Shown here piece after piece: positions 35,071-41,637 of a DNA stretch of 64,000 nt. A program made the translations under genes and the position numbers. Numbering within the stretch: position 1 is the first letter of the stretch; every line of letters begins with the position of its first letter. This DNA is from Curtobacterium citreum. Its GTDB lineage: Bacteria > Actinomycetota > Actinomycetes > Actinomycetales > Microbacteriaceae. The DNA is taken from the NCBI RefSeq assembly GCF_006715175.1, contig NZ_VFMQ01000001.1:2108001-2172000 (forward strand), written 5' to 3'. The notes under the pieces were generated by a model, which saw only the letters and a program-made list of their open reading frames with translations, did not search any database and was not told where the DNA came from.

Positions 35071-36795
35071 TCAGCCCCAGCGCAGCCCGGTGCCGCCGAG
35101 GGGGATGACGTTGCTCCACCCGGTTCCCTCGCCTGGCGTCGCGTACTTGTGGTACGCCTGGCCGTCAGTGCCGATCGTGAAGACTTCCTCGCGGTCCTGG
35201 GCGTTGTAGCCGACCGCGACATCGACGAACGGACCGTTGGCGAACTTGGTCAGGGTGCCCCAGCCGTTGGCCGAGTCGTACCAGGTGTTGTAGAGCGCAC
35301 CGTCGGTTCCGAGGCCGAACACTTCAGTGAAGCCGAGGGCGTTGACGCCGACCGCGAGGCCCTTGTAGCTTGGGCCACCCTGCAACTGGTTCCAAGCGGT
35401 CCAGCCAGCGGAGCTGTCGTACCAGGCGTGCGAGATTGCGCCGCCGGAGCCGATCCCGAAGAGCTCCTCGTCACCTGCTGCGTTGTAGGCAAGGGTGATC
35501 TTCGTGAAGCCACCGGTCGAGTTCACGAGGGACCAGTCGTTCCAGCCGACTCCCTTCGTGAACCACTTGTGGAATACGCGACCGCCACCACCGATAGCGA
35601 AGATCTCCGGCTCGCCGTTCCGGTTGAATCCGGTCGTCACATCGGTCCAGTGATCACCGCCGAGGGAGCTCCAGCCGGTCCAGCCCTTTGCCGAGTCGTA
35701 CCAGGCTTGCCACATCACGCCACCGTCGCCGATTGCGTAGAGGACCTCGTTGCCGTCGACGTTGTAGCTCAACGCCATGTCCGTGAAGCCGGTCTTGCCG
35801 AGTGAGTTCCAGTCGCTCCAACCGGTGCCGGGGATGAACCACTTGTGGAAGATCACACCGCCTCCGCCGATGGCGAAGACCTCGGCGTTGCCGGCGCTGT
35901 TCTTGCCTGTGGTGACCTTCGTGTTGGAGCTGCCCTGCAGCGAGCTGAAGCCGCTCCAGCCTGTGCCTTGGCCGGGAGTGGAGTAGTTGTGAACGACGTC
36001 GCCGCCGGAGCTGATGGCGAAGACCTCGGCATCGTTGCTGCTGTTGTAGCCGATGGGGCCGCTTGGGAACAGCTTGTTGGCACGGTTCTGGGTGGGCGCG
36101 ACGGCAGCGGGCAGGGTGAGCCCTGTGCCCACTCCGCTCAGGTCGACGTGCTGGTGGTTGCACGTGTCGTCGAACTGGCGGGTGATGTTTGAGAACGACC
36201 ACGTGGACCGGCACTGGACCTGGCCAGCCTGACTACCGCGCGGCAGGAAGGTGTCGAGGAAGGTGAGCAGACTCTTGGTCTGGGAGCTCGACCCATTGAC
36301 GTTGTTCCGGGATCCGATGCCACCGAAGTCGATCGCGACGGCTGGGTCAATGCAGTGCAGTGAGCGCGGGTTCTGAGCACACGTGTACGGGTGGCTCATC
36401 GTCTTGCACTCTCGGTTGAGGTCGTTGACCTGCACGAAGCCGTACTGCTTGACGAGGATGACCATCGTCTGCAGGATCCGGACGTCCACCTTGCAGGTAG
36501 GAGTCGGGGAACCGTTGGCGATCGGAACGATCTCGTTGTTGAAGAGGTCGTTGTTGCCCGATCCTCCCGCGGACGCCTCGAATTGGCCTGCGTTCTTGAA
36601 CGCAACGAGCTGCTTGGCGAGCGCCGCGCTGTCACCGGAGATGTTCTCGCACGACGCGCCACAAGCGGCGGCCGCGCGAGCTTGCTGAGGGCTTACGAGA
36701 ACGATGGTCGAAAGGACCACCGAGACGAGAGTGAGCAGGAGCAGGACGGAGGTAAGCCTCCGCCGTCTACCTGGCATAGATGTCGTCAGAGACAT
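35071..36795 (-). CDS. Secreted M15-like domain plus seven-repeat lectin-type propeller
   Basis: 574 residues. The N-terminal signal (basic PGRRRR, then hydrophobic LTSVLLLLTLVSVVLSTIVLV, cleavage near ARA-AAA) predicts secretion. The next part has HPYTCAQNPRSLHCIDPAVAID and later CNHQHVDLSG, resembling the H-x-D and HxH zinc pattern of M15/VanY-type peptidases. The rest is seven repeats of about 46-47 residues of the type VFAIGGGGVIFHKWFIPGTG, WSDWNSLG, as in PLL/tectonin-like propeller lectins. It could bind glycans and cleave or modify the cell wall. It has its own orientation, a terminator downstream, and is a prophage cargo gene rather than a structural gene. Confidence 0.75.
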   Translation of the reverse strand: MSLTTSMPGRRRRLTSVLLLLTLVSVVLSTIVLVSPQQARAAAACGASCENISGDSAALAKQLVAFKNAGQFEASAGGSGNNDLFNNEIVPIANGSPTPTCKVDVRILQTMVILVKQYGFVQVNDLNRECKTMSHPYTCAQNPRSLHCIDPAVAIDFGGIGSRNNVNGSSSQTKSLLTFLDTFLPRGSQAGQVQCRSTWSFSNITRQFDDTCNHQHVDLSGVGTGLTLPAAVAPTQNRANKLFPSGPIGYNSSNDAEVFAISSGGDVVHNYSTPGQGTGWSGFSSLQGSSNTKVTTGKNSAGNAEVFAIGGGGVIFHKWFIPGTGWSDWNSLGKTGFTDMALSYNVDGNEVLYAIGDGGVMWQAWYDSAKGWTGWSSLGGDHWTDVTTGFNRNGEPEIFAIGGGGRVFHKWFTKGVGWNDWSLVNSTGGFTKITLAYNAAGDEELFGIGSGGAISHAWYDSSAGWTAWNQLQGGPSYKGLAVGVNALGFTEVFGLGTDGALYNTWYDSANGWGTLTKFANGPFVDVAVGYNAQDREEVFTIGTDGQAYHKYATPGEGTGWSNVIPLGGTGLRWG

Positions 36796-37021
36796 AGCAG
36801 TTCGCTTCCGGGAGGCTCCCCTGTGCGCCGCCCCTCGGCGCATCTGTGCCTCACCTGTGTACATGCTAGCAATACGCCCCATAGCGCGGACAAGCAACGT
36901 ACATGGTGCAGTAGCGAGCCTGAGTGCGATGAGGCTCCGTCGCCCCTCGAGCGGAGTCGCGCTCGTCCACTTCCGACAGATGATCCCTAGGCTGTCTAGC
37001 AATCCCGCGTACCGTGTCTGC

Positions 37022-37159
37022 ATGAGTTCAGAACGCGACGACCTGAACGCCGAGCTGCGGCCCTTCGACCTCGACGAGTTCCTGCACGACTTCGTCGACG
37101 GCCTCGAGCCGGTCACGGAGCACCCCGTTAGCCGCGGACCGCATCGCGACAGTCGGTAA
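37022..37159 (+). CDS. Small acidic protein of 45 residues
   Basis: MSSERDDLNAELRPFDLDEF, then HDFVDGLEPVTEHP: acidic and helical. TACCGT ends exactly 6 nt before the ATG, so a leaderless start. Not recognised. Confidence 0.5.
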   Translation: MSSERDDLNAELRPFDLDEFLHDFVDGLEPVTEHPVSRGPHRDSR

Positions 37160-37630: not shown

Positions 37631-37930
37631 GTGGCAGTTCGACGGCGGGACCGGTGGCGGCTCGTCGACGCGTACTCGCTCCCCGAGGCAGCGCGCGGCG
37701 GCCCCGAGGTCGACCTGGCGCAGCCGGACCCGGTCCTGGCGTGGATCCAGTTCCCCGATCGCATCCTCGAGCTCGAGGGCCGCGTCATCGCGTACACCGA
37801 CCGCGCAGTCCTCGTCGAGTGGGGGTTCGGGCAGGGCGCCGATTGCGCGTGGGTCTGGCGCGACGCCGTTCGTCGTCGGAACGACAAAAAGCGCCCCGCA
37901 CCCTCGAAGGAGGGGCGGGGCGCATCGTGA
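37631..37930 (+). CDS. Unknown protein of 99 residues
   Basis: Starts at GTG 37631 with TACCGT exactly 6 nt upstream and no Shine-Dalgarno. Contains RRDRWRLVDAYSLPEAARGG, then VLVEWGFGQGADCAWVWRDA. A terminator hairpin lies in its last codons, so the final 15 residues may be only hairpin-derived. Not recognised. Confidence 0.6.
   Translation: MAVRRRDRWRLVDAYSLPEAARGGPEVDLAQPDPVLAWIQFPDRILELEGRVIAYTDRAVLVEWGFGQGADCAWVWRDAVRRRNDKKRPAPSKEGRGAS
37891..37923. terminator. Terminator overlapping the end of the 99-residue ORF
   Basis: GCGCCCCGC (37891-37899) pairs with GCGGGGCGC (37915-37923), with an A-tract before it. It insulates the downstream SGNH gene from upstream transcription. Confidence 0.75.
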
Positions 37931-37938
37931 GCGTCGCT

Positions 37939-37944
37939 TAGGAT
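37939..37944 (+). promoter_or_regulatory. Predicted -10 box of the SGNH gene
   Basis: TAGGAT inside the 14-mer TCGCTTAGGATCAG (37934-37947), 9 nt before the ATG. The same 14-mer stands before the polymerase gene at 38755-38768. Confidence 0.6.
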
Positions 37945-37953
37945 CAGGGGATT

Positions 37954-38724
37954 ATGGGGAACTTCACGGACTGGTTCGGTCGCTCCTACAAGGGCATCAT
38001 CATCGGGTTGCTGGCGGTGTTTGCCGGGACGATGGTCGTGCTCGCAATGCAGCACGTGAACAACTCCCGGCCCGCTGCCGGCGCGACCGCTCGGCCGGCG
38101 CCTACCTTCGCTAGCTCCCTGCCTGACAAGCCCCGAGCGGTCTTCTTCGGCGACTCCTACGTCGAAGGCACCGGAGCCTCAACACCCGCGAAGCGCTGGA
38201 CCACGCTCGTAGCACAGAAGGAAGGCTGGATCGAGATCAACCTCGGCCAGGGCGGAACTGGCTACGTGAACGGCGGCCCCGATCAAGGTCAGGCTGACCA
38301 GTACGCCTCTCGCATCGCCAAGATCAAGGCCGCTCGACCGGACATCGTCGTGATCGCCGGGAGTCAGAACGACCTGCTGTTCCCGACCGACCAGGTCGAC
38401 TCCGCAATCAAGGACACGCTCGTTCAGATCCGCGCTGCCGTTCCCGACGCGAAGATTGTCGTGTACGGCCCGGTCAACCCGGGAGAGATCAAGCCCGCCA
38501 CCCGTACGAACGACGCTGCGACCAGCGCGGCTGCACAGGCGATCGGCGCGGATTACATTAGCTCGATCTCGCCTACGAGCACCTATGAGTCGCCGGCGGA
38601 CTATTGGACGGACGGTCAGCACCCCTCCGACAGCGGGCACCAGCACATCGCCGACCGTTTCATCGAGGAACTCCCGTCGGACGTGCCGCGAGGAGAACCG
38701 TCAGCATCCCCAACCGCTGGTTGA
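37954..38724 (+). CDS. Membrane-anchored SGNH/GDSL hydrolase
   Basis: 256 residues. One N-terminal TM helix (GIIIGLLAVFAGTMVVLAM) anchors an extracytoplasmic SGNH domain: block I VFFGDSYVEGTG, the Gly block INLGQGGTGY, the Asn block AGSQND, and the catalytic Asp-His pair in DGQHPSDSGH. SGNH domains are esterases or acyl-transfer partners that act on polysaccharide acyl groups. It lies 49 bp before the polymerase-like gene and both share the same promoter word. Substrate unknown. Confidence 0.85.
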   Translation: MGNFTDWFGRSYKGIIIGLLAVFAGTMVVLAMQHVNNSRPAAGATARPAPTFASSLPDKPRAVFFGDSYVEGTGASTPAKRWTTLVAQKEGWIEINLGQGGTGYVNGGPDQGQADQYASRIAKIKAARPDIVVIAGSQNDLLFPTDQVDSAIKDTLVQIRAAVPDAKIVVYGPVNPGEIKPATRTNDAATSAAAQAIGADYISSISPTSTYESPADYWTDGQHPSDSGHQHIADRFIEELPSDVPRGEPSASPTAG

Positions 38725-38759
38725 TGATCGCGAGCACACGGTGCGTGCTGAGGTTCGCT

Positions 38760-38765
38760 TAGGAT
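38760..38765 (+). promoter_or_regulatory. Predicted -10 box of the polymerase-like gene
   Basis: TAGGAT, 8 nt before the ATG at 38774, within the same 14-mer as the SGNH promoter. Confidence 0.6.
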
Positions 38766-38773
38766 CAGTCGAT

Positions 38774-40213
38774 ATGGGGTCCTCGGTGAACAACACCAGC
38801 ACGACGCCGAGCCCGCTGCTCGGCACGATCACCTTCATCGTGCTCGCCGGGATCGTCCCGCTCCTGATCATCCTGAGTACACCCGACAACGGGTACGCCG
38901 CCTGGGTCGGGGCGCTCGCCATGACCATCGCGAGTGCCGCCCGGTTCAGCTGGACCATCAGTAGCCGACAACGACACCTCGTCGAGATGATCGTCTGCGT
39001 GTTCGTCTACGGCTTCCTCGGACTTGCGCCTCTGGTGCAGCTCCGGATGCGTGCGGAGGTGGGAACCACCCCGGGATTTGTCGAAGACTTCGCTACGACG
39101 ACGGTGCTCATCATCCTGGCCGGATTCGCCTCGATCTGCTTCGGCAGCTTGCTCGCAACGATCAAGGCGCCCGACGCAGCGATCCGCGTCCGACCAGTCC
39201 AGCACCTTCACGCACCACGCGTAGTCCTGATCACCCTCTTCGCCTTCGCCGTCGCCGCCTTCTACGTCTCCCGGGTCGGTCTCGCGTCCTTCGGTCGCCC
39301 GCGGCTCGAATTCAGCGCACGTCTCGGCGAAGTCTTCCCAGACGACACGACTGCCGCCCTGATCGTCGGCTTCGCCAGCATGAGCATGCTCGTCGCGCTC
39401 GTCGCGCAGATCATGCTGTTCCGCCAGCGTCGACGAGCCGGATCGAAAGCACCCCTGCTCCTGCTCGCGGTCACCGCGGTGACGCTCCTGCTCATCGTCA
39501 ACCCCATCAGCAGCGCGCGCTACGCAGTCGGCACGGTCTACCTCGCGTTTCTAGCCGCCGCCGGAATCTGGGGAACCCTCCGCCGCTACCGAACCATCAG
39601 CGTCCTCACCCTCGGCGCCCTGTTCTTCCTGTTCCCCATCGCGTCCACCTTCCGCAACAGCCTCGACGCGAAGGTCTCCCTGCAGAACCCCCTCGAGTCC
39701 CTCCTGTCCGGCGACTTCGACAGCTTCGACCAGATCAACAACGCCGTCTACTTCGTCGCCGTCCGCGGCATCACCTGGGGTGACCAACTCCTCGGAGTCA
39801 TCTTCTTCTGGGTGCCGCGGTCCATCTGGCCCGACAAGGCGATCGACACCGGCGTCCTGCTCGCCCAGTTCCGCGGGTACAGCTTTCAGAACCTCTCCGC
39901 ACCACTGTGGGCCGAGTTCTTCATCAACGGCGGGTGGCCGCTCCTCATCCTCGGCATGATCCTCGTCGGCTTCGGCGCTCGACGGTGGGATGCTCGGCTC
40001 GACGCCCAGATCCTCGCGACGGGGACCCCGACGCTGCTGGGGAGCATCGTCCCGTTCTACTTCCTCATCATGCTGCGCGGGTCACTATTGCAGGCCATGG
40101 CGTCGCTGGGCGTCATCCTCCTGCTCAACTGGTTCCTGACGTTTAAGAGCTCCGCTCCAGCAACGGGGAAAAGCCCCTCGGGAGTCTCCCAGAGGAGCCT
40201 CTCGAGGGGCTGA
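38774..40213 (+). CDS. O-antigen polymerase (Wzy)-like membrane protein
   Basis: 479 residues with about 10-12 hydrophobic helices and a large loop near the C-terminal third. The stretch LLGVIFFWVPRSIWPDKAI, then LSAPLWAEFFINGGWPLLIL matches the oligosaccharide repeat-unit polymerase pattern (WzyE/TIGR04370 type). Such enzymes join repeat units of surface polysaccharide. It is odd in a prophage of a Gram-positive: related seroconversion genes occur in Salmonella and Pseudomonas phages. A terminator hairpin overlaps the stop. Specificity unknown. Confidence 0.83.
   Translation: MGSSVNNTSTTPSPLLGTITFIVLAGIVPLLIILSTPDNGYAAWVGALAMTIASAARFSWTISSRQRHLVEMIVCVFVYGFLGLAPLVQLRMRAEVGTTPGFVEDFATTTVLIILAGFASICFGSLLATIKAPDAAIRVRPVQHLHAPRVVLITLFAFAVAAFYVSRVGLASFGRPRLEFSARLGEVFPDDTTAALIVGFASMSMLVALVAQIMLFRQRRRAGSKAPLLLLAVTAVTLLLIVNPISSARYAVGTVYLAFLAAAGIWGTLRRYRTISVLTLGALFFLFPIASTFRNSLDAKVSLQNPLESLLSGDFDSFDQINNAVYFVAVRGITWGDQLLGVIFFWVPRSIWPDKAIDTGVLLAQFRGYSFQNLSAPLWAEFFINGGWPLLILGMILVGFGARRWDARLDAQILATGTPTLLGSIVPFYFLIMLRGSLLQAMASLGVILLLNWFLTFKSSAPATGKSPSGVSQRSLSRG
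40172..40211. terminator. Terminator between convergent polymerase and receptor-binding genes
   Basis: AGCCCCTCG (40172-40180) pairs with CGAGGGGCT (40203-40211). A second weaker stem (about 40215-40221 with 40244-40250) lies just before the receptor-binding gene stop. Confidence 0.75.
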
Positions 40214-40248
40214 CGACACAAGCTCATGCGCCGCGCGCTCAGGTTGTG

Positions 40249-41637
40249 TCACATGGGGCTGAGGAACCGGACGAGCTGGTCAGCGATGAACGCATGCGAC
40301 ATGTCCGTGGGGTGGATGCCGTCCGTGTAGTACGGGTTCGCTGCGGGCCCATTGGCGGCGGGCATGCGGGCGTTCAGATCGAGGACGCACACCGATGGGT
40401 CGGCCGCTGCGATCTCGTACTGAGCGGCGACGAACGCTGACCAGGCGTCGCCGGTGAAGGTGCCGGTGCGGAGCCAGTACGGCATGAGCACGAACGACGG
40501 CGGTGTGGTGACGTTCGCCTTGCAGGCGGCGATGATCTTCTGCAGGTTCTGCTTCGCCGTGGCCGCTGACGCGTTCGCCGCGTAGTCGTTGATCGAGAGC
40601 GCGATGACGAACAAGCTCGGCTGGATCGCAGCAATCGGCTTCGGAGCGTCCAGGTTGGCGAAGAACGTGGTCGACTGCCCGTAGTAGCCGTTGCCGTACG
40701 TGTGCACGCCCTGGTTCTCGTCGCCGTCGTTGACGTAGATGCCCGAGAAGTAAAAGCTCCCGGACGCCCCAGCGAGAGTGATCGTGTGACCGCCGGACGC
40801 CCCGAGGGTGACTCGAATGACCTTCCCGTCGGACACCCCGCTTCCGCCGAACGAGATCGTCTGCGGTGTCCCGCCGTCGACGGTGATGGTCGCGGTGGCC
40901 CCGTTGACCTGCACACCGTGGATGTCGACGCTCGTGCCCTTGACGGTGATCGTCCACGTGTCGGTCGACGCCTTCAGGATGTACGTGCGGCGGCTCAGGC
41001 CGAATCCAGTGTCCGTGTAACTGCCGCCGCCTCCCGGATTAGCCGGAAGGTTCCCGCCGACGGTGGCCGGCTGACCGAACGAGTTCGCCATCTGCCACGG
41101 GTCGATCCAACCGACACCGCCTCCGCTGCCGAGCGCGGTCGTCGGGAAGTGACGACGGAGCAGCATCTGCGCTCGCTGCACCCAGCGGCGATCACGAGTC
41201 GTCGCACCCTGCCCCTCGGTGATGCTGTCACCGGGGCCGAAGCGTGCAACGGCCGGGGCGTAGTCGCGGTTCGCGAGTGCGAACCACCAGGACTGCAGAG
41301 CTCGGGCGCGCTGCTGCTGCAGGTACTCGAGGCTGTTGCCAGTCAGGGCGGGGATGCTGACGGCACCCGCTGCGCTGTAGATGCCTGGGGACGCGTAGGT
41401 GAAAGCCCCGCCCGGGTCGCCCTTCACGCCTGGGTTCCCCTGAGGTCCGGCGTCACCCTTGCTGAGCGCTGGCAGCTTGTCGACAGCGTCGACACCGTTG
41501 CCGATCTTGTACCCGCTCGACTTCCCGTCCGCGCCGATGATCGCGATAGGTTCACCATCTTCGGGGATGAACCCCGCGGCAATGAAGTCGCCCAGGGTTC
41601 CGCGCCGCACCCGGATCCGCTTGTAGTCGACGGCCAT
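40249..41637 (-). CDS. Receptor-binding tail protein with collagen-like and SGNH domains
   Basis: 462 residues, last gene of the late operon. A short N-terminal attachment part is followed by a collagen-like Gly-X-Y stretch (KGDAGPQGNPGVKGDPGG), then an SGNH esterase domain with GDSITEG, LSINDY and DGIHPTDMSH, flanking beta-rich modules. This architecture suits a tail fibre that recognises and de-acylates host surface glycan. The neighbouring lysogenic genes also involve SGNH and polysaccharide functions. Confidence 0.87.
   Translation of the reverse strand: MAVDYKRIRVRRGTLGDFIAAGFIPEDGEPIAIIGADGKSSGYKIGNGVDAVDKLPALSKGDAGPQGNPGVKGDPGGAFTYASPGIYSAAGAVSIPALTGNSLEYLQQQRARALQSWWFALANRDYAPAVARFGPGDSITEGQGATTRDRRWVQRAQMLLRRHFPTTALGSGGGVGWIDPWQMANSFGQPATVGGNLPANPGGGGSYTDTGFGLSRRTYILKASTDTWTITVKGTSVDIHGVQVNGATATITVDGGTPQTISFGGSGVSDGKVIRVTLGASGGHTITLAGASGSFYFSGIYVNDGDENQGVHTYGNGYYGQSTTFFANLDAPKPIAAIQPSLFVIALSINDYAANASAATAKQNLQKIIAACKANVTTPPSFVLMPYWLRTGTFTGDAWSAFVAAQYEIAAADPSVCVLDLNARMPAANGPAANPYYTDGIHPTDMSHAFIADQLVRFLSPM

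Follow-up and report, generated by a model that had tools for sequence, protein, structure and literature searches.

The stretch of Curtobacterium citreum DNA analyzed here (the window: 64,000 nucleotides, positions 2108001-2172000 of the 3.61-Mb genome) contains a prophage in which the gene for a membrane-anchored SGNH hydrolase and a wzy gene, for a polymerase of oligosaccharide repeat units, face a tail receptor-binding gene whose product ends in an SGNH domain of its own (Table 1). The reading toward which we lean is that this cassette is a receptor-specificity and receptor-editing module, the two SGNH enzymes of which are exchanged together, with O-acyl editing and exclusion by the lysogen as its predicted effects. 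An earlier note on this DNA had placed the three reading frames where they were found again, and its family assignments hold (PF13472, TIGR04370, phrog_15881); both plus-strand genes adjoin the receptor-binding gene, as it had stated, and since the latter lies on the minus strand the arrangement is convergent. Labels of the L0xx and L1xx type denote loci fetched from viral contigs, phage records, and genomes.

DNA sharing was compared by blastn (E <= 1e-8) in the 45 pairs formed by ten Curtobacterium loci, with overlaps of 1-17 bp at region edges, and the initial 150 bp of the tail gene, disregarded. The anchor region matched in 43 of the pairs. The catalytic domain and the body of the tail gene were both shared in three (L053, L054, and L060) and both unshared in 42; in none was one shared alone. 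The window and L049 have in common positions 37879-38060, comprising the hairpin, promoter word, and anchor (88%), and long stretches from 41592 onward (79-92%, with short gaps). Since both flanks are shared and the block between them is not, the entry gene and the anchored catalytic domain have been replaced together; the L049 contig stops approximately 280 bases left of its SGNH gene, and the left flank beyond lies outside the comparison. Phages Hestia and Bridgette come from two genera; a 5.2-kb block common to both (91%) contains the pair, flanking small genes, and an integrase, beyond which there is only one 0.47-kb match in the 10.8 kb compared.

The similarities of catalytic domain and tail gene also co-vary across hosts, a check proposed in the earlier note that came out positive. 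Eight Curtobacterium loci were set against nine other lineages, after removal of L053 and L060 (for which L054 stands in), Morkie (Bowser), Hestia and Bridgette (Popper), and of L037 and L040, which lack an adjoining tail gene. The raw correlation was 0.37 (p 0.004), rising to 0.515 upon double-centring (p 1.5e-4) and to 0.506 when controlled for the other locus proteins (p 2.5e-4). It remained at 0.386 (p 0.005), 0.465 (p 0.003), and 0.492 (p 0.001) on dropping L052, the window, and L049, respectively. The best cases were L052 with TripleJ, and the window and L049 with BrayBeast. A chance neighborhood of common SGNH genes is a highly improbable explanation: such hydrolases are indeed common, 61 of 66 Curtobacterium genomes having one like the anchored enzyme of the window, but the conserved promoter and anchor block, the all-or-none DNA sharing, and the cross-host correlation strongly disfavor it.

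Table 1. Features of the cassette and its surroundings, in window coordinates.
Feature	Position	Strand	Evidence or remark
Small gene, 99 residues	37631..37930	+	Upstream of the SGNH gene; similar gene in L052 (by eye)
Hairpin, terminator- or insulator-like, between small gene and SGNH promoter word	37891..37923	+	-33.8 kcal/mol, z -6.7
TTAGGAT, -10-like element, 9 nucleotides ahead of the SGNH ATG	37938..37944	+	Conserved at anchored-SGNH starts
N-terminally membrane-anchored SGNH hydrolase, 256 residues	37954..38724	+	PF13472 E 1.6e-20; AlphaFold2 model
Block not shared with L049: SGNH catalytic domain, wzy, and nearly all of the tail gene	38061..41591		blastn
Second TTAGGAT copy, ahead of wzy	38759..38765	+	Same promoter word
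Wzy-type oligosaccharide repeat-unit polymerase, 479 residues	38774..40213	+	TIGR04370, 45.2 bits (cut-off 40); ~10 transmembrane segments
Hairpin in the 3′ end of wzy, between convergent genes	40172..40211		Plus strand -33.7 kcal/mol, z -4.5; minus strand -29.3, z -2.2
Tail receptor-binding protein with C-terminal SGNH domain	40249..41637	-	phrog_15881 "tail protein" E 1.1e-40; PF13472 E 2.6e-17

The AlphaFold2 model of the anchored enzyme (mean pLDDT 89) consists of a helix at residues 4-36 followed by an SGNH fold, with Ser68, Asn139, Asp220, and His223 as predicted catalytic residues. In SGNH enzymes block I contributes the GDS serine, block III the asparagine, and block V the histidine; the columns of Ser68, Asn139, and His223 are invariant in ten of ten family members. 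Anchor-based searches led to nine viral-contig loci, the window counted, and to five of the 66 Curtobacterium genomes, where the copies were located with a degenerate DNA pattern, a short anchor alignment having overlooked known copies. The same pattern was found in one of 398 draws from the bacterial family, the C. citreum genome itself, few Curtobacterium genomes being among those draws. Nine relatives are 57-78% identical to the window enzyme over the first 56 residues and 27-43% over the full length. Judged by these sequences, the anchored SGNH is a Curtobacterium-phage family with a constant promoter and anchor and diverse catalytic domains. A resemblance of each accessory enzyme to its own tail SGNH, as duplication would leave, amounted to a weak diagonal excess (p 0.015) and is not relied on.

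The 5′ flank of the family reads, in order, a hairpin (in most members), TTA[GC]GAT or a near variant (as in L060 and L037), and ATGGGG. The 14-bp word TCGCTTAGGATCAG that the earlier note had placed ahead of both plus-strand genes is present at 37934 and 38755, and the window contains exactly two copies of its 13-base core. The entire 3.6-Mb genome contains the pattern TTAGGAT, 7-9 nucleotides, ATGGG only twice, ahead of the SGNH gene and ahead of wzy (reversed control, 0); the polymerase has therefore come under a copy of the promoter word of the family. In the loci fetched, a redundant set of 2.5 million strand-bases, TTA[GC]GAT with the same spacing and ATGGG matches only at anchored-SGNH starts and at this wzy start. 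Counted as a window-wide motif with three mismatches the shared word is not above chance (15 found versus 12.3 expected), and it is taken as real because of its position and conservation. If the element is a promoter, as its sequence suggests, the 7-9 nucleotide spacing predicts RNA starting at or near the ATG and thus a leaderless mRNA. Similar upstream hairpins are found in L051, L052, and L061, the three other loci folded. The insulation of the genes by terminators, as previously claimed, rests on the hairpins of Table 1, a generic scan of these plus-strand sites having revealed neither a sigma-70 consensus pair nor a T-tailed terminator.

Placement and promoter bear on the possibility that the anchored SGNH acts during lysis, clearing producing cells and their debris of the receptor and so freeing progeny in the manner of a receptor-destroying enzyme. 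Membership of the same enzyme family as the tail enzyme, and pairing with the tail gene, would be equally expected of such a role. We nevertheless consider it quite unlikely, as the gene lies on the strand opposite to the late genes (terminase, portal, capsid, major tail, and tape-measure, all on the minus strand), is separated by a hairpin, and follows a conserved -10-like element of its own, spaced as for a leaderless mRNA; the integrase of this prophage (PF00589, 3.9e-22; L125 3048-4139, plus strand, just outside the window) shares the strand of the cassette. The earlier suggestion of a possible lysogenic surface-conversion cassette is partly supported: the anchored SGNH is phage-associated, has its own promoter word on the opposite strand to the late genes, and co-varies and swaps with the receptor-binding gene.

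The tail gene is, as called, the last gene on the late strand. Ape1-like O-acetylesterases are recognized by an SGNH domain with an inserted β-domain, and the fold of the tail model agrees with this: structures 8gld, 4k3u, and 8gkd fill the top five Foldseek rows (TMt 0.62-0.68, root-mean-square deviation 5.0-6.3), in a model with an overall pLDDT of 67.8 and a poor N-terminus. As modeled, its SGNH domain is closest to the peptidoglycan O-acetylesterase Ape1, whereas the anchored SGNH is nearest to small esterases and carbohydrate acetylesterases. SGNH receptor-binding proteins are known from Klebsiella prophages and from coliphage G7C (gp63.1), the tail SGNH deacetylating polysaccharide, and two such Klebsiella-prophage proteins have been shown to be esterases (PMC13123978). 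From the Ape1-like tail model, the esterase-like anchored model, and these Klebsiella esterases we infer that both enzymes edit O-acyl groups of the receptor.

The tail protein would bind an O-acylated cell-wall glycan or exopolysaccharide, from which its Ape1-like domain would remove acyl groups. A host-type promoter probably drives the convergent, leaderless-type SGNH gene in the lysogen, and the anchored product may edit the same decoration at the envelope, most likely by removal and possibly by transfer. Phages whose tail protein is of the same type would then no longer find their receptor on the lysogen; lysogenic O-acyl conversion with superinfection exclusion is probably the outcome. 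Because the two enzymes must match, we propose, phages would exchange them jointly, between the constant promoter and anchor on one side and the constant tail genes on the other. The wzy gene, added in this prophage under a copy of the promoter word, would also change the polymerization of the glycan.

In all nine viral-contig loci the anchored SGNH faces the gene taken as the tail receptor gene, and the facing protein has an SGNH match in the window, L051, and L052, in L061 (lipase/esterase PHROGs), and in L049 (the SGNH-bearing phrog_15881). Among the genomic copies, that of G044 (L038) faces a gene with a GDS motif, judged by the motif alone, and that of G031 is the prophage of L053. INPHARED contains further facing pairs in the Arthrobacter and Gordonia phages Popper, Hestia, Bridgette, Kukla, TripleJ, BrayBeast, Clown, Belphegor, Bowser, Morkie, and AbbyDaisy and in Microbacterium phage Footloose, with an accessory SGNH of 214-261 residues and, in the Popper group and BrayBeast, an intervening small gene. 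The accessory enzyme was recognized by Pfam or PHROG matches in Popper, Kukla, TripleJ, Clown, Belphegor, Bowser, Morkie, AbbyDaisy, and Footloose; those of Hestia and Bridgette do not differ from the Popper enzyme, and the call in BrayBeast rests on tblastn and motif. BrayBeast, TripleJ, Clown, Popper, and Belphegor were reached via the accessory gene, and Hestia, Bridgette, and Kukla via that of Popper, to which 35 INPHARED records (some of them duplicates of one phage, from at least two genera) have a protein at least 99% identical. The novelty that the earlier note saw in an actinobacterial prophage consequently does not extend to the facing SGNH pair; the trio with the polymerase is seen only here.

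Some annotations in these phages deserve comment. Clown gp41 (L009 7956-8723), an anchored SGNH, is labeled "head decoration" in RefSeq; its top match, phrog_9703, bears that name, and the label was probably carried over from an SGNH domain. The BrayBeast accessory gene (L008 7869-8576) is annotated as a hypothetical protein of 130 residues, the open frame being of approximately 235 residues with a lipobox. Clown gp42 (L009 7572-7820) and Kenna gp36 (L073 5127-5354) occupy the same slot and, by eye, seem to form one small family.

Several observations weigh against the joint-exchange module. At the protein level the catalytic domain of the window is 31-37% identical to those of L050, L051, or L052 (36-37% for L050 or L051), the tail proteins of which are unlike its own, a soft picture that is expected if catalytic domains of one superfamily retain distant similarity. 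Within Curtobacterium the Mantel correlation (0.89, p 0.005) is carried by three related loci (Spearman 0.15), and the similarity of the anchor correlates with that of the tail gene as well (r 0.53); therefore, weight is put on the cross-host test and the DNA blocks. The tail protein of L050 has a GDS motif and no Pfam match, and the tail fibers of L053, L054, and L060 have neither a GDS motif nor a recognizable SGNH domain (domain scan for L053 only). In two of the five Curtobacterium genomes with an anchored-SGNH gene, no tail gene adjoins it (L037 and L040); in L037 its place is taken by an O-antigen ligase/polymerase gene (PF04932, over cut-off).

Searches of INPHARED by way of the tail gene returned 25, 41, and 6 records (duplicates included), from which 14 representatives absent from the accessory-search rows were hand-picked for variety. 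Four have a facing SGNH (Bowser and Morkie, which are one type, AbbyDaisy, and Footloose), one, Sekhmet, has a hexapeptide acetyltransferase in the slot, four have another facing gene (Gudmit, Wrigley, Kenna, and BillyTP), and five have none (Fosterous, Amigo, Rabbitrun, Stultus, and BeeGee). Viral-contig loci reached in this way have an SGNH in 6 of 27 cases, only L091 (PF13472) being new; downstream genes were read in 16 of the 21 loci without one, and in ten of these the next called gene is on the strand of the tail gene. In addition, another region of the C. citreum genome, which may or may not be an intact prophage, encodes a 93% identical tail protein with a coiled-coil/transmembrane protein in the slot instead of an SGNH. 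The pair is hence not obligatory, and the coexistence of two near-identical tail proteins within a cell implies that exclusion falls short of absolute or else that order played a part. The slot protein of this second region (approximately 3,037,623-3,038,846; L004 13624-14847, plus strand) has 407 residues, with coiled coil and transmembrane segments by eye and no Pfam match, and is a candidate exclusion or defense gene.

The unrelated genes in this slot, both in the second region and in Gudmit, Wrigley, Kenna, and BillyTP, would suit an ordinary host-benefit moron, which improves fitness in soil or on plants by altering exopolysaccharide and lies by the tail gene merely as a permissive insertion site; so would the chromosomal relatives of Wzy. 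Such a gene would not be expected to be exchanged jointly with the tail gene or to co-vary with it across hosts with unrelated anchors, as the catalytic domain does, and we regard this explanation as unlikely.

A different enzymatic role is conceivable. The anchored SGNH may be an acyltransferase partner, comparable to the SGNH part of AT3-SGNH enzymes, that adds acyl groups; folds related to its model include acyltransferases (SsfX3, 8zbc). In Kukla (L064 3645-5636) an AT3 acyltransferase gene (PF01757, 8.5e-30) adjoins the anchored SGNH gene and faces the SGNH tail gene, the two may form a phage-encoded, split AT3-SGNH pair for O-acylation. AT3-SGNH enzymes are defined by a fused AT3 domain, and PF01757 has no match in the SGNH, Wzy, or tail protein of the window; nor does any of the other INPHARED pair loci read carry an AT3 annotation next to the SGNH. 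We regard this role as unlikely; were it true, the surface would be edited all the same, though in the opposite direction.

The polymerase scores over the curated cut-off of TIGR04370 and has the hydrophobic segments of that family. Among 7999 candidates scored, 371 homologs had E <= 0.001, and the best 120 of these include chromosome-sized contigs of Curtobacterium herbarum, Microbacterium, and Rhodococcus; relatives at 67-76% identity exist in metagenomes. INPHARED phage records contain no match, viral contigs only this prophage (at 100% identity, in an IMG/VR contig of 34,570 bases, UViG 2806311065), and the 66 Curtobacterium genomes only its own. The 299 genomes of the bacterial family gave eight matches at E <= 1e-40, its own included, the candidates scored in each genome being few. 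Of the seven other family loci, six were read for context, and the neighbor scan covered L115, L116, and L117. An SGNH-like gene lies within the same 17 kb in four of the six (blastp), directly ahead of the polymerase and on the same strand, which is the order of the prophage, in L115 and L116, and approximately 4 kb away in L117 and L118. Other neighbors are glycosyltransferases (L115, L116) and Wzz-type chain-length proteins (L115, L116, and L117). The L115 SGNH retains the GDS motif. The SGNH-like proteins of L116 (9185-10153), L117 (13024-14103), and L118 (3294-4115) lack its serine (GQS, GDE, and GDA by eye); from their sequences they may be noncatalytic, possibly partners of the polymerase.

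A wzy gene beside a paired-SGNH module is, in sum, seen only in this prophage, its relatives being in chromosomal polysaccharide loci, often near an SGNH. The earlier note had considered that an occurrence of the genes mostly in nonphage polysaccharide loci would tell against conversion, and for the polymerase this partly applies, its relatives being mainly outside phages and in such loci where context was read. The host genome encodes two proteins of the Wzy_C family (O-antigen ligase) over cut-off and therefore probably makes a polymer usable by the prophage enzymes. A weak match of wzy to the chromosome at 1005559 is due to chance, involving by eye a membrane segment of an AI-2E-type transporter, with no phmmer match.

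The ends of the prophage are not fixed, there being no shared words of at least 14 bases between 28.0-34.5 kb and the right end. The small gene upstream of the cassette has no PHROG match, and a 118-bp piece of it (37755-37872) survives in the second region of the genome; EWSPP-type small proteins occur near the anchored SGNH in other loci, their relatedness to it being judged by eye only. To the left of the cassette, a minus-strand gene at 35071-37116 encodes a protein with a secreted-type N-terminus and β-propeller lectin matches (NCBIfam CV39L family, 2e-25, below cut-off), possibly another conversion gene.

Receptor editing by prophages is known from Gram-negative bacteria. Phage D3 of Pseudomonas also has an O-acetylase, and its Iap is a very short peptide inhibiting the host polymerase. 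The D3 seroconversion unit comprises Wzy-beta and Iap, and Salmonella phage epsilon15 is likewise seroconverting (PMC4815439). The present prophage resembles both in bearing a Wzy polymerase able to alter surface-glycan polymerization, superinfection resistance being a feature of D3 and epsilon15 (PMC4815439). Here, in contrast, the host is an actinobacterium, and what accompanies the polymerase is an anchored SGNH linked to the tail gene. Phages Sf6, Sf101, and P22 convert by O-antigen O-acetylation or glucosylation (acetyltransferases in the former case), and Kapi1 modifies its own O-antigen receptor (PMC8787464). All are temperate phages that edit their own polysaccharide receptor, as presumably does this one, in which, by contrast, the enzyme is of the tail enzyme's superfamily, and its gene is convergent with the tail gene and swapped along with it.

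For the Klebsiella and G7C tail proteins no anchored partner enzyme is described in the portion of PMC13123978 consulted; adjacent proteins with SGNH matches are mentioned there for receptor-binding proteins without a detected domain, and (de)acetylation is named as a possible layer of phage competition, such as superinfection exclusion. Gordonia phages have a variable region between the minor-tail and integration genes that was proposed as a defense region, and in which gene 31 of Bowser is a "putative lipase" (PMC5559632); this is the facing SGNH of our analysis, and the corresponding part of that paper gives no link to a tail esterase, no mechanism, and no co-variation. Depolymerases of Curtobacterium prophages include GDSL/SGNH enzymes, with short ones of 228 and 241 residues (PMC9862828), treated there as lysis or penetration depolymerases; the sections consulted do not mention an anchor, pairing, or polymerase. 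We recognized no description of paired tail and anchored SGNHs in searches of the open-licence literature, which does not show their absence from print.

These comparisons suggest that the pairing would fall within lysogenic receptor conversion, a known kind. In its general form, to which we give slightly less than even credence, the proposal is that actinophages possess an exchangeable module in which the tail SGNH reads or removes receptor O-acyl groups and a cognate, lysogen-made anchored SGNH edits them beforehand. Exclusion groups would be written in the pair, and recombination at two constant sites, the promoter and anchor and the 5′ end of the tail gene, would swap entry specificity and self-exclusion together. 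If true, this would provide a function for temperate-phage genes annotated as "head decoration," "lipase," "esterase," "hydrolase," or "hypothetical," and the co-inherited enzymes would let sequence predict which actinophages exclude each other.

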